From contig JAKPPT010000072.1 of NCBI GenBank assembly GCA_029547205.1, positions 372,001 to 436,000 of the forward strand: a DNA stretch of 64,000 nt, given 5' to 3'. Under the pieces are notes generated by a model that saw only the letters and a list, made by a program, of their open reading frames with translations, was not told where the DNA came from and did not search any database. The position numbers were made by a program, and so were the translations under genes. Origin of the DNA: Spirochaetota bacterium. Its GTDB lineage: Bacteria; Spirochaetota; Spirochaetia; Treponematales; UBA12059. Positions 14,486 to 18,157 of this stretch are shown here, one piece after another (within the stretch, counting starts at the first letter, position 1; every line of letters starts with the position of its first letter).

Positions 14486-14750
14486 TTACAGTGGCAAACT
14501 ACGTTTATTTAAAAACATTTTACTACCAATTATATTTTTTTTCGCAGGGTGCATTGGAACTGGAATAATTTATTTTTTTATAATACTTTTATGGGGACTT
14601 ATAGCTGCACCCTGGATACGAATAGTCAATTCAAACATTACAAGCATGATACTGCTTTTGCTTTCTGGTTTTTTTACATGGACTGTACTCAAAAAGATTG
14701 TTGAGCATTTTCAGGGAAGAGATCAAGAAAGCCATGATCAGCATCAGTAA
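14472..14750 (+). CDS. Small two-helix membrane protein, unknown
   Basis: A 92-aa reading frame starting at GTG within the end of lspA. It has two clear membrane segments (ILLPIIFFFAGCIGTGIIYF and the one around SMILLLLSGFFTWTVL) and a charged tail ending HFQGRDQESHDQHQ. I do not recognise the family. The overlap with lspA suggests coupled translation. Its 3' end runs 62 bases into the convergent speE gene, which is unusually long for two real genes, so a spurious frame is possible. The hydrophobic pattern argues that it is real. Confidence 0.5.
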   Translation: MKQNNYSGKLRLFKNILLPIIFFFAGCIGTGIIYFFIILLWGLIAAPWIRIVNSNITSMILLLLSGFFTWTVLKKIVEHFQGRDQESHDQHQ

Positions 14751-15603
14751 TGATTTTTGTATTGCTTACAAGCAATGATTTAATCCATGGTTCACAAATA
14801 AATTTTGATTTATAACTATCTGGTGTAATAACCTTGAGCGGGCCTAGAGCCTCCAACTTTTTTGTAAGCACGCGTTCCTCTGGAATAATTATATTTTGAC
14901 CAGGTGAACATAAAGCAAACGACCAGAGTCCTCCATACATAGCAATTGTATGAAAACAGGGAACAACATCATTAAAAACAGTGGAGAGTGTTGCATGTAT
15001 GCTGGAAAAGGTCATTGGACGAAATTTAGGCGATTCTGAATGCATGATAAAAAGAGACTCAGCATTTCGGAGCTTTTCTTTTACTGCTGTAAAAAATTCT
15101 CTGGTGTAGAGCATAACGGAAGGTCCAAATGGATCTGTCATGTCCATGATTATCACATCGTATCGTTTTGTTGTACGTTCAATGTATGAGCGACCATCCC
15201 CAATGGTGAGCGAAAGTCTTGCATCTGCAAAAGAACCGCTTGCAATCTCAGGAAAATACTTTTGTGAAAATTGTATTACTTCGCCATCAAGCTCAACCAT
15301 ATCTATTGTTTTAACAGCTTGATATTTGCACACTTCACGCAGTATTCCACCATCGCCTCCGCCAATAATACATACATGTTCTGGATTCTGGTGCATAAGC
15401 AATGGTAAGTGTACCATTGGTTCATGGTAGTGATATTCATCTGACTCAATTACCTGTATACAGCCATCGAGAACCAGAATTTTCCCAAACTGATGCGATT
15501 CATAGAGCGCTATGGATTGATAGCGTGTCTGACCAGTATAGAGTATTTTCGCATACTCAAGAAAATATCCAGAGCCAGAACCATTCCATTCGTTATGCAA
15601 CAT
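14689..15603 (-). CDS. speE: Spermidine synthase
   Basis: Transfers an aminopropyl group from decarboxylated S-adenosylmethionine to putrescine. The protein is 304 aa. ESDEYHYHEPMVHLP, IIGGGDGGILREV and the catalytic stretch IIMDMTDPFGPS are the family hallmarks. ATG 15603 has GAGG 6 bases upstream; longer in-frame starts lie within the end of speD. The gene begins 8 bp after the speD stop, so both steps of spermidine synthesis form one operon. Its 3' end overlaps the small membrane-protein gene on the other strand. Confidence 0.96.
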   Translation of the reverse strand: MLHNEWNGSGSGYFLEYAKILYTGQTRYQSIALYESHQFGKILVLDGCIQVIESDEYHYHEPMVHLPLLMHQNPEHVCIIGGGDGGILREVCKYQAVKTIDMVELDGEVIQFSQKYFPEIASGSFADARLSLTIGDGRSYIERTTKRYDVIIMDMTDPFGPSVMLYTREFFTAVKEKLRNAESLFIMHSESPKFRPMTFSSIHATLSTVFNDVVPCFHTIAMYGGLWSFALCSPGQNIIIPEERVLTKKLEALGPLKVITPDSYKSKFICEPWIKSLLVSNTKIITDADHGFLDLFPENAQQSF

Positions 15604-15611
15604 ACACATCC

Positions 15612-16391
15612 TCAGATGTTGTGACACTCAAAAATTTCTTGCATTTCAACTTTAAGCATTTCCCTGATTTGCTTTCTTTCTTTAGGTGTCAACGAAGTAG
15701 TATCAGACCCAAAAAGGTAGTCGTCCATTACCAGGCGCTTTTTCATCATTTTTGTATGAAAAATATTTGCAGAAAGGATATTGATATCATACACAAGATA
15801 ATCATTTAAAATATCTTCATCAACATAATCCTGTATAGAAGTAATTTCATGATCGATGTAAATTTTTTTACCGCGTGTATCTCGTGTAAATCCTCGCACA
15901 CGGTAATCCATGAGCACAACATCGGAATCAAAGCTCTCGATTAAATAGTTAAGTGCTCTCAGCGGAGAAATCATTCCGCAGGTTGATACATCGATATCTA
16001 CACGGAACGTAGCAATGCCAGATTCTGTGTTATGCTCCGGATAGGTATGCGCAGTTATATGACTTTTATCAAGATGAGCAGTTACTGTTCCAACCTTTGG
16101 TTTTGAAGCACTGTGATCCCACTCATTTATCAAGGCTGTTACACTTGCACCACGAGGATCATAATCCTGTGTTGAAACATGTACGAGTTTTGCATTAATA
16201 ATACTGGTTACTTCTTTAATGATTTCATGGAGACGCTTTGAATTGTATTCCTCATCGATATATTCCAGATACTCAATTTGACTTTCCCGAGCTTTTGCAT
16301 AACAAATATCATAAATATTAAAGCTCAATGTCTTCGTGAGATTATTAAAGCCTTCCAGTTTTATTTTTTTACCATACACGCGCTGTAACAA
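15612..16391 (-). CDS. speD: S-adenosylmethionine decarboxylase proenzyme
   Basis: Supplies the aminopropyl donor for SpeE. The 259-aa length and sequence match the long bacterial (E. coli) class. The precursor cleaves itself to form a pyruvoyl group: DKSHITAHTYPE near residue 120 contains the Lys-Ser cleavage site with the Ser becoming pyruvoyl. RVDIDVSTCGMISPLRALNY carries the proton-donor Cys. The start is TTG at 16391, supported by AGGAGG 10 bases upstream and the lack of a nearby ATG. It is the first gene of a speD-speE operon. TATACT-like sequences upstream (near 16435) may be the -10 box, but no good -35 box is visible. Confidence 0.95.
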   Translation of the reverse strand: MLQRVYGKKIKLEGFNNLTKTLSFNIYDICYAKARESQIEYLEYIDEEYNSKRLHEIIKEVTSIINAKLVHVSTQDYDPRGASVTALINEWDHSASKPKVGTVTAHLDKSHITAHTYPEHNTESGIATFRVDIDVSTCGMISPLRALNYLIESFDSDVVLMDYRVRGFTRDTRGKKIYIDHEITSIQDYVDEDILNDYLVYDINILSANIFHTKMMKKRLVMDDYLFGSDTTSLTPKERKQIREMLKVEMQEIFECHNI

Positions 16392-16505: not shown

Positions 16506-17882
16506 CTAAATATGTAAGATTGCTTTGGCTATGCTAAAGTACAAAAACAGACCCGTAATATCAACAACTGTTGTAATTGCAGGACTTGCAATGAGAGCAG
16601 GATCCAGTTTACAGGCTGCAGCAAGCAACGGTAAAATTGCACCAATAATGGTTGCTGAAATAACCTGAACTCCTAAAGCAACACTAATTGCAAATGCAAT
16701 GTTTTGAAGCGATATACCTTCTGGCAGTTCCAACCCGCTCGAACTTAGCATGACACGAGCAAAAGCAAGCAGTGCTAGAACACCACCTAACAGTAAAGCA
16801 ATTCTTAATTCTTTCCAAAGCACTTTACCAATGTGACCAGGTTTGATTTCTTTGAGAGCGAGGGCACGCACTACTACCGTAGCAGATTGACTTCCGGTAT
16901 TGCCGCCAGTATCAGCAAGCATAGGCATATAAAATGCCAAAATGACCAGATTGACCATAGCCGATTCAAAATGCTGAAGAATTGCGCCAGAAACAAGACC
17001 CACAGCTGCTAAAATAACAAGCCAGGGAACCCTGTGCAAAAACTGCTTCCATACCGGAATTTTGAGATACGCCATATCCTCATGTTTACCGGTAATAGCC
17101 ATAAAGCGTTCAAAATCTTCAGTTCGTTCCTGCTCAATTACATCGATAACATCATCATGTGTAATAATCCCAACGAGGCGATTATTTTCATCGACAACTG
17201 GCAATGTGACGAGGTCAAACTTTTTTACCATATAGACGACTTCTTCACGTGATGCAGTGGCTTTAATGGAAGTAATCTGTTCGGATTCAAGAAGATTGCT
17301 GAGTTTTTCATCAGGATCAGCAAGAATTATGTCTCCCAGTGATAGTAGCCCAACGAGATGCTTTTGATTATCAATAAGGAATATGGTATAGATTGATTCT
17401 TTTGTGGCACCTTCTTTGCGAATACGCTGAATTGCAGCTTGTGCCGTGATTGTGGATGGCACTGCAACAAACTCAGTCGTCATGATAGAACCTGCTGTAC
17501 CTTCCGGATAGGCAACGAGTCTTTCAATTGTTGCCCTATCCTCCAACTGGGGCAAAACCTGCTGCGAGGTCTCTTCTGGCAATATTTTGAACAAGTCTGC
17601 CTGATCATCTGGCGAAAGGTCATTGATAATCGAAACAAGTTCCTGGTTATCAAACAGAGAAGAGAGTTCTACCTGCACACTCCCTGGTAATTCACAGAAT
17701 ATATCTGCTCGCTTTGATTCATCAAACTGCAGGAGAATGGTTTTTATCTGTTCAACAGGAAAATTGTTAAGAATTTCAGCAGATTCTGTAGGATGTAATT
17801 CATCCAGAAAATTTACGACTTCTTTGATATTTCCTTCTTCAATGAGTTCTTTGATATCGGGAGCGACTAACTGATCGATCAT
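16506..17882 (-). CDS. mgtE: Magnesium transporter MgtE
   Basis: A 458-aa Mg2+ channel/transporter of the inner membrane. Residues 1-125 are the helical MgtE N domain. Residues 130-255 hold two CBS domains (SIMTTEFVAVPSTITAQAAI and ITSIKATASREEVV) that sense cytosolic Mg2+. Residues 280-458 are five membrane helices with TGGNTGSQSATVVVRALA and the pore Asp in SPAITTVVDITG. The ATG follows CGGAGG by 6 bases. The region upstream contains a leader ORF and alternative helices that can mask this ribosome site, suggesting translational control, perhaps by Mg2+. Confidence 0.96.
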   Translation of the reverse strand: MIDQLVAPDIKELIEEGNIKEVVNFLDELHPTESAEILNNFPVEQIKTILLQFDESKRADIFCELPGSVQVELSSLFDNQELVSIINDLSPDDQADLFKILPEETSQQVLPQLEDRATIERLVAYPEGTAGSIMTTEFVAVPSTITAQAAIQRIRKEGATKESIYTIFLIDNQKHLVGLLSLGDIILADPDEKLSNLLESEQITSIKATASREEVVYMVKKFDLVTLPVVDENNRLVGIITHDDVIDVIEQERTEDFERFMAITGKHEDMAYLKIPVWKQFLHRVPWLVILAAVGLVSGAILQHFESAMVNLVILAFYMPMLADTGGNTGSQSATVVVRALALKEIKPGHIGKVLWKELRIALLLGGVLALLAFARVMLSSSGLELPEGISLQNIAFAISVALGVQVISATIIGAILPLLAAACKLDPALIASPAITTVVDITGLFLYFSIAKAILHI

Positions 17883-17888
17883 AGTTTT

Positions 17889-17985
17889 CCTCCGTATAAG
17901 CTGACATAAAACATCTCACACGGAGTATACTGATATGCTGTATCGATTAAGACAGGTTATAGCATGCTCAGTGACACTCCGTATG
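17889..17985 (-). promoter_or_regulatory. Alternative-helix switch controlling the mgtE ribosome site
   Basis: Three short segments compete. Segment B (17917-17926, minus strand ACTCCGTGTG) can pair with segment C (17976-17985, CATACGGAGT) over 10 bp with one G-U pair. Shifted by one base, B can instead pair with segment A (17890-17899, TTATACGGAG) over 10 bp with two G-U pairs and a 16-base loop. A contains most of the mgtE Shine-Dalgarno sequence; C is inside the last third of the leader ORF (codons 30-33). The C-B helix has an inner extension: CTGA/TCAG, then ATGCT/AGCAT. So translation of the leader should decide whether the mgtE site is free. No M-box (ykoK) consensus is visible. Confidence 0.6.
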
Positions 17986-18073
17986 TATAAAGCGAGATCC
18001 GGCAACTATGTTCCGGAACATCTGCAGCGTCCGAGCATGTCTGTGTAGTAGTACAGTCTGCGGAATCGTGCAT
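17957..18073 (-). CDS. 38-codon leader ORF upstream of mgtE
   Basis: The peptide starts MHDSADCTTTQTCSDAADV and ends with YGVSLSML. AAAGGAGG lies 6 bases before the ATG, the strongest ribosome site in this region, and a consensus promoter lies 56 bases further up. The N-terminal half is acidic (five Asp/Glu within residues 3-21) and holds three Cys and one Pro. Acidic or Pro-rich leader peptides are known to destabilise ribosomes at low Mg2+ in enterobacterial mgtA and mgtC leaders; the parallel is inference. The end of the ORF encodes one arm of the switch. It could also be a short gene of its own, but its position argues for regulation. Confidence 0.6.
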   Translation of the reverse strand: MHDSADCTTTQTCSDAADVPEHSCRISLYTYGVSLSML

Positions 18074-18128
18074 TTGTTACCTCCTTTATAACTACGAAGT
18101 ATGCTCTTACTAACCCTGAGCAGTGAGC

Positions 18129-18157
18129 AGTATAAACTCATATCAAAATCATGTCAA
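18129..18157 (-). promoter_or_regulatory. Consensus promoter of the mgtE leader transcript
   Basis: On the minus strand TTGACA (18152-18157), a 17-bp spacer and TATACT (18129-18134). Transcription should begin near 18121, giving about 48 bases before the leader ATG and about 240 bases before mgtE. The first bases carry a tandem CTGCTCA repeat. Confidence 0.75.

Follow-up and report, generated by a model that had tools for sequence, protein, structure and literature searches.

A leader ORF upstream of mgtE as a candidate Mg2+-responsive translational attenuator in Spirochaetia

The 5' leader of mgtE in the 64,000-nucleotide stretch of Spirochaetota DNA analysed here (contig JAKPPT010000072.1, positions 372,001 to 436,000; hereafter, the window) probably constitutes a translational attenuator that senses the fate of ribosomes on a short leader ORF and turns mgtE on at low Mg2+. 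The best reading is a Mg2+-responsive aborting or pausing leader with a translational output, which would work like Salmonella mgtQ and E. coli mgtL. At plentiful Mg2+, ribosomes would reach the leader stop codon and cover arm 2, an RNA arm formed by the ORF end; arm 3, the pivot, would then be free to pair with the mgtE Shine-Dalgarno (SD) region (arm 4), and mgtE would be off. At low Mg2+, ribosomes would pause or drop off on the leader start, rich in Asp, Ser, Gly and Pro; such an early-stopped ribosome would cover arm 1, arm 2 would pair with the pivot, and the mgtE SD would be released and mgtE translated. Computation shows the parts of the leader and how far they are conserved, predicts two folds that exclude each other, and ties the leader to Mg2+ transporters. 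We infer that ribosomes translate the leader, that they pause on it or drop off it, that low Mg2+ makes them do so, and that Mg2+ acts as the signal.

The mgtE locus and its competing RNA helices

The original prediction had described a consensus promoter, a leader ORF with its own SD and a pivot segment upstream of mgtE, and all of its coordinates were correct, give or take a few bases (Table 1). The spacer between the leader ORF and mgtE is 74 nt long in the window. Two genes lie downstream of mgtE on the same strand (14689-16391, -): speD (adenosylmethionine decarboxylase, TIGR03331) and speE (spermidine synthase). Polyamines are able to replace Mg2+, so co-regulation of speD and speE with mgtE is conceivable; the mgtE-speD-speE linkage was absent from the other fetched loci.

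Table 1 Features of the mgtE leader region in the window.
Feature	Positions	Strand	Basis or remarks
Sigma-70 type promoter, TTGACA-17-TATACT	18129..18157	-	Consensus matches 11/12
Leader ORF SD, AAAGGAGG	18080..18087	-	Sequence
Leader ORF, 38 codons, MHDSADCTTTQTCSDAADVPEHSCRISLYTYGVSLSML	17957..18073	-	N-terminal half conserved at amino-acid level; C-terminal half holds RNA arm 2
Arm 1, inside leader ORF; predicted to pair with the ORF end if the ORF is untranslated	18026..18039	-	Minimum-energy fold; opening-cost dip with leading edge at codons 12-13
Arm 2, leader ORF end; 12 bp with pivot	17974..17985	-	Folding and shuffles
Arm 3 (pivot)	17915..17939	-	17939-17917 pairs with arm 2 plus the bases that follow arm 2; 17925-17915 pairs with arm 4
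Arm 4, mgtE SD region, CTTATACGGAG; 11 bp with pivot	17890..17900	-	Folding and shuffles
mgtE SD core, GGAGG	17889..17893	-	Sequence
mgtE, magnesium transporter	16506..17882	-	TIGR00400, 375.7 bits; MgtE_N, CBS and MgtE domains

Both helices proposed for the pivot, each put at 10 bp originally, were recovered in slightly longer form. The ORF-end arm (17985-17974) pairs with the pivot (17928-17917) within a longer hairpin of -29.3 kcal/mol (z = -4.4; equally stable dinucleotide shuffles, 0/200), and the pivot (17925-17915) pairs with the mgtE SD region (17900-17890) in a helix of -19.1 kcal/mol (z = -2.15; equally stable shuffles, 8/200). The minimum-energy fold revealed a third arm that the original prediction lacked (18039-18026); this arm can hold the ORF end, so that the modelled layout is 1:2 + 3:4 versus 2:3.

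How much free energy it takes to open the mgtE SD was computed for different extents of ribosome coverage of the leader. In the window, the predicted cost was mostly 3-5 kcal/mol with the leading edge of the ribosome around codons 12-29, and 9.4-11.5 kcal/mol from about codon 32 on; the same step was found in relatives, for instance three of them (L019, from 4-5 to 12.9; L016, from about 3 to 9.6; L084, from 2.9 to about 12), the opening-cost profiles rising stepwise near the ORF end. Opening the window SD cost 4.7 kcal/mol with a ribosome paused early versus 11.3 after termination; the corresponding controls gave 10.1 for the shuffled ORF (p = 0.01) and 4.4 for the shuffled spacer (p = 0.01). 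Among 19 non-redundant leaders, the ORF end freed the mgtE SD beyond shuffled sequence (Fisher combined p = 6e-8 against the dinucleotide-shuffled ORF, 3e-8 against the codon-shuffled ORF) and the spacer masked it beyond shuffled spacers (combined p = 6e-11), values to be read with a pause position picked after inspecting the position profiles and with related leader sequences being non-independent. An earlier test of 58 leaders, in which the pause position was not used and the whole ORF was free, pointed in the same direction more weakly (mean SD opening: spacer only, 6.9; with the ORF, 5.2; shuffled ORF, 6.3; shuffled spacer, 4.3). The switch signal was also present in the leaders preceding corA (combined p = 5e-5 for the ORF, 2e-3 for the spacer) and mgtA (1e-4 and 2e-6, respectively).

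Hairpin 2:3 showed z values of about -2 to -4 in most leaders despite their unrelated sequences, suggesting that architecture is kept across the leaders and sequence is not. A MAFFT alignment of seven leaders misaligned the arms, so the recurrence of the arms was assessed by per-sequence folding and shuffles. In certain genera, little SD masking was predicted for the leaders (the SDSDGGGS type before mgtE, with 32-42 nt spacers, and the YPG type), so the output mechanism appears to be non-uniform.

The mutually exclusive helices that were proposed to mask or free the mgtE SD are thus supported by the predicted folds, the opening costs and the shuffles. The associated ribosome-position logic held in its main part, an early stop being predicted to open the SD and coverage of the ORF end to mask it, and was refined in one respect: the no-translation state is predicted to be partly OFF as well, so that the ON state would be favoured once a ribosome has initiated on the leader but halted early. 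It is unlikely that the output is transcriptional instead, leader translation exposing or hiding a Rho site or a terminator and SD masking being a side effect. The enterobacterial mgtL and corL do work through Rho (PMC11282234, PMC11552253) and some spirochaete leaders display no SD masking, but no intrinsic terminator was found between 17700 and 18400, and SD masking exceeded that of the shuffles in most core leaders.

Conservation and composition of the leader peptides

Homologues of mgtE were gathered from the order and the class of the window's genome and their upstream regions were read. About 75 mgtE genes of the class Spirochaetia (a tabulation that includes some genomes twice, reached via two collections) were preceded by a short ORF whose start is rich in Asp, Ser, Gly and Pro; such leaders were present in families f1, f3, f4 and f5 of the order and in several other families of the class. 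The nearest relative, a Spirochaetota MAG whose MgtE is 77% identical, encodes MHDSADRGATRASAETADVPAHSRRSPSRHDGAPLAAD at the same position; more distant leaders begin with MNDSDGPGSSQPPEPHLCV, MDQSDSSGSSSTVPLPAY, MGDGSSSGSYPG, VSLRKTSDTDSDPYGSKN, MDDPDGSTDYHIRQY and MSEPSRPNNSEDPFLC, and leaders with MNDSDGPGSSQPPEP and DTDSDPYGS are in the set. The pN/pS ratio between the window and this nearest relative (L003) was 0.31 for codons 2-24 and 1.20 for codons 25-38; the N-terminal ratios of the corA and mgtA leaders were 0.20 and 0.29, and after the N-terminal part the values were about 0.8-0.9; the C-terminal ratios, that of the window pair included, span 0.84-1.20. These ratios point to a peptide start under amino-acid constraint and an end free of it, as would be anticipated for an end whose role is that of RNA.

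The main ground on which the original prediction was open to refutation, a lack of conservation of the ORF and the helices in relatives, was examined and did not refute it: the ORF recurs before mgtE across the class with an amino-acid-constrained N-terminus, and the competing helices recur in the same places in unrelated sequences. No recognisable leader was found before some close mgtE genes (L007, L026-L028). In loci of other Spirochaetia, mgtE without a visible leader directly follows an ORF with an end resembling the MurB C-terminus (L145, L146, L154, L156, L157, L160, L161, L171, L177, L178), a resemblance judged from the sequence and not by a database match.

Neighbouring or one-apart acidic residues among the first 30 of a peptide, often accompanied by Pro, pause or dislodge ribosomes (PMC11282234). 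Peptide composition was compared using ORFs picked by SD strength and position alone, with reverse-strand ORFs as controls. Of 62 leaders, 57 had an acidic residue plus Pro among their first 20 residues, versus 6 of 23 controls (p = 5e-9); neighbouring or one-apart acidic residues were present in the same stretch in 39/62 versus 2/23. Asp (13.4% versus 1.4%), Ser (20% versus 8.7%) and Pro (10.6% versus 3.8%) were enriched in the leaders; Glu was not. The peptide of the window had been described as acidic near its start, and it is, modestly: it carries D3, D6, D15, D18, E21 and one Pro, with D3 and D6 two residues apart and D18-V-P-E21, the closest approach to the adjacent-or-one-apart rule, borderline. 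The signal is clearer in relatives (DSD, PPEP, SDPYG, EPEDPFPR). The window peptide also contains several Cys and His.

Over the first 20 codons of the leaders at 51 loci, 46% of serines were encoded by AGU, compared with 10% in the genes that follow, and synonymous change was low within the leader motif, suggesting that something acts at the nucleotide level as well. Neither the lack of Glu enrichment nor the enrichment of AGU is predicted by a simple acidic-residue model.

Association with Mg2+ transporters and the nature of the signal

We searched 294 genomes of the order for a DNA pattern (SD + ATG-NNN-GAY-TCN-GAN), ignoring the next gene; the pattern gave 83 matches versus 13 for its reverse. 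The matches included 55 short ORFs (10-60 aa), 46 of them followed by a gene for MgtE, CorA or MgtA (12, 21 and 13, respectively); two further short ORFs (L104 and L137) precede already mapped mgtE genes, one is cut off by the contig and six have no Mg2+ transporter gene following. Hence, 48 of the 54 testable short ORFs lie directly upstream of a Mg2+ transporter gene, versus none of the 25 long or open ORFs. Family membership was checked on examples: PF01544 and TIGR00383 for corA (the latter below cut-off), and TIGR01524 for mgtA (partial proteins). The mgtA leaders contain TEPEDPFPRPS or NSEDPLPRR; their cores (EPEDPFPRPS/SEDPLPRR; L184, L185, L211-L221) are like the E. coli MgtL core, by convergence or homology. 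No leader was found before the corA gene of the window's own genome.

MgtE, CorA and MgtA are unrelated and share only their Mg2+ cargo, so Mg2+ is the most economical signal for the leader and probably the one sensed, and the Mg2+ part of the original prediction gains independent support from the same leader standing before corA and mgtA genes. The same RNA switch might respond to the activity of a translation factor, EF-P or EttA, or to the supply of amino acids through charged tRNA-Pro or tRNA-Ser, and not to Mg2+ directly, a reading to which we give a low probability. It would fit the PPEP, PYPG and PLP motifs, the high Pro and Ser content, the AGU bias described above and the action of EttA and EF-P on mgtL-type leaders (PMC11282234, PMC6460261); it fits less well with the single Pro of the window leader, with the several leaders that have no Pro in their conserved part, and with Mg2+ transport being the sole common feature of the three regulated families.

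Two further readings fare worse than Mg2+ sensing through the ribosome. That the ORF product is a functional small protein acting on MgtE, with the RNA pairing incidental, is very improbable: the conserved N-terminus and the Cys and His of the window peptide would suit it, but the C-terminal half is unconstrained and its length varies, the same N-terminus occurs alongside three unrelated transporters, and the RNA shuffle statistics stand against it. The M-box riboswitch controls mgtE in other bacteria, but the reading we consider least probable is that an M-box or similar riboswitch senses Mg2+ directly here and that the ORF is there by chance. What is conserved is the amino-acid sequence, not an aptamer, and Rfam covariance model searches of the window and its relatives gave no gathering-score match and, at E up to 1, nothing of note, in agreement with the original claim that no M-box is present.

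In those searches, the window and 20 loci lacking an obvious leader gave no hit at gathering score to the M-box or any other Rfam family. The same was true of 10 leader-bearing loci, except for an unrelated glycine riboswitch; an aptamer of this family (RF00504, 51.7 bits) lies near the mgtE locus of L024 on the other strand (1031-1135, -). At E up to 1, the single match in the leader region was L19_leader, judged to be due to chance.

More speculatively, and with rather less confidence than we place in the attenuator itself, Spirochaetia may regulate all three classes of Mg2+ importer through a single, general leader-peptide system that senses Mg2+, in which the signature, Asp-Ser-Asp followed by Gly/Ser with AGU codons and then by Pro, would be a distinct nascent-chain abort or pause motif beyond the enterobacterial acidic motif, and which would fill the place of the M-box in other phyla.

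Comparison with known Mg2+-responsive leaders

The sensing of Mg2+ through the fragility of the translating ribosome was worked out in enterobacteria. In Salmonella mgtQ, the ribosome is destabilised by acidic codons, and formation of stem-loop 2:3 frees the mgtB ribosome site (PMC8092293); in MgtL, drop-off at low Mg2+ on an EPDP motif switches mgtA on (PMC11282234); and E. coli corL behaves similarly (PMC11552253). In leaders of the mgtL type, bL31 or EttA counteracts the drop-off.

The spirochaete leaders resemble mgtQ, located between mgtC and mgtB in Salmonella, in several respects: a short ORF with an SD before a Mg2+ transporter gene, early acidic codons, a choice between folds 1:2 + 3:4 and 2:3 in which the 3:4 pairing takes up the transporter SD (here by prediction and shuffles), and translational release of the transporter ribosome site (here predicted). 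They differ in that mgtQ comprises 8 codons inside an operon before mgtB, a P-type ATPase gene of enterobacteria, whereas the spirochaete leaders comprise about 20-50 codons and precede mgtE, corA or mgtA, the leader of the window having its own promoter. With mgtL, which precedes mgtA in E. coli and Salmonella (PMC11282234), they share an acidic or Pro-rich N-terminus and a downstream Mg2+ transporter gene, the EPEDPFPRPS or SEDPLPRR of the mgtA leaders resembling the MgtL core with its EPDP motif; unlike mgtL, which acts by Rho-dependent termination, their predicted output is SD masking, and they are enriched in Asp, not Glu, and rich in Ser and Gly. The corL leader before corA (PMC11552253) is likewise a uORF with two exclusive RNA folds, its relation to corA expression being inverse, but it is Rho-based and has few acidic or Pro residues. 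Like the control predicted here, the M-box (ykoK leader) makes mgtE respond to Mg2+ in other bacteria; it is aptamer-based, needs no leader ORF and was not found in this leader by the Rfam search.

The open-licence literature searched yielded no account of a leader peptide upstream of mgtE or in a spirochaete. If the leaders work as predicted, the principle would be far wider than enterobacteria, reaching a distant phylum and serving MgtE, CorA and MgtA alike with a translational output; dozens of natural variants of a destabilising peptide would be available for learning the sequence rule; and there would be a regulatory explanation for Mg2+ uptake where no M-box is found at these genes. What the spirochaete leaders appear to share with mgtQ and mgtL is a working principle; homology to the enterobacterial leaders is not claimed, the 8-aa mgtQ peptide being too short to compare. 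What sets the spirochaete leaders apart is their phylum, a different and broader set of transporters, a predicted translational output and a distinctive peptide signature.
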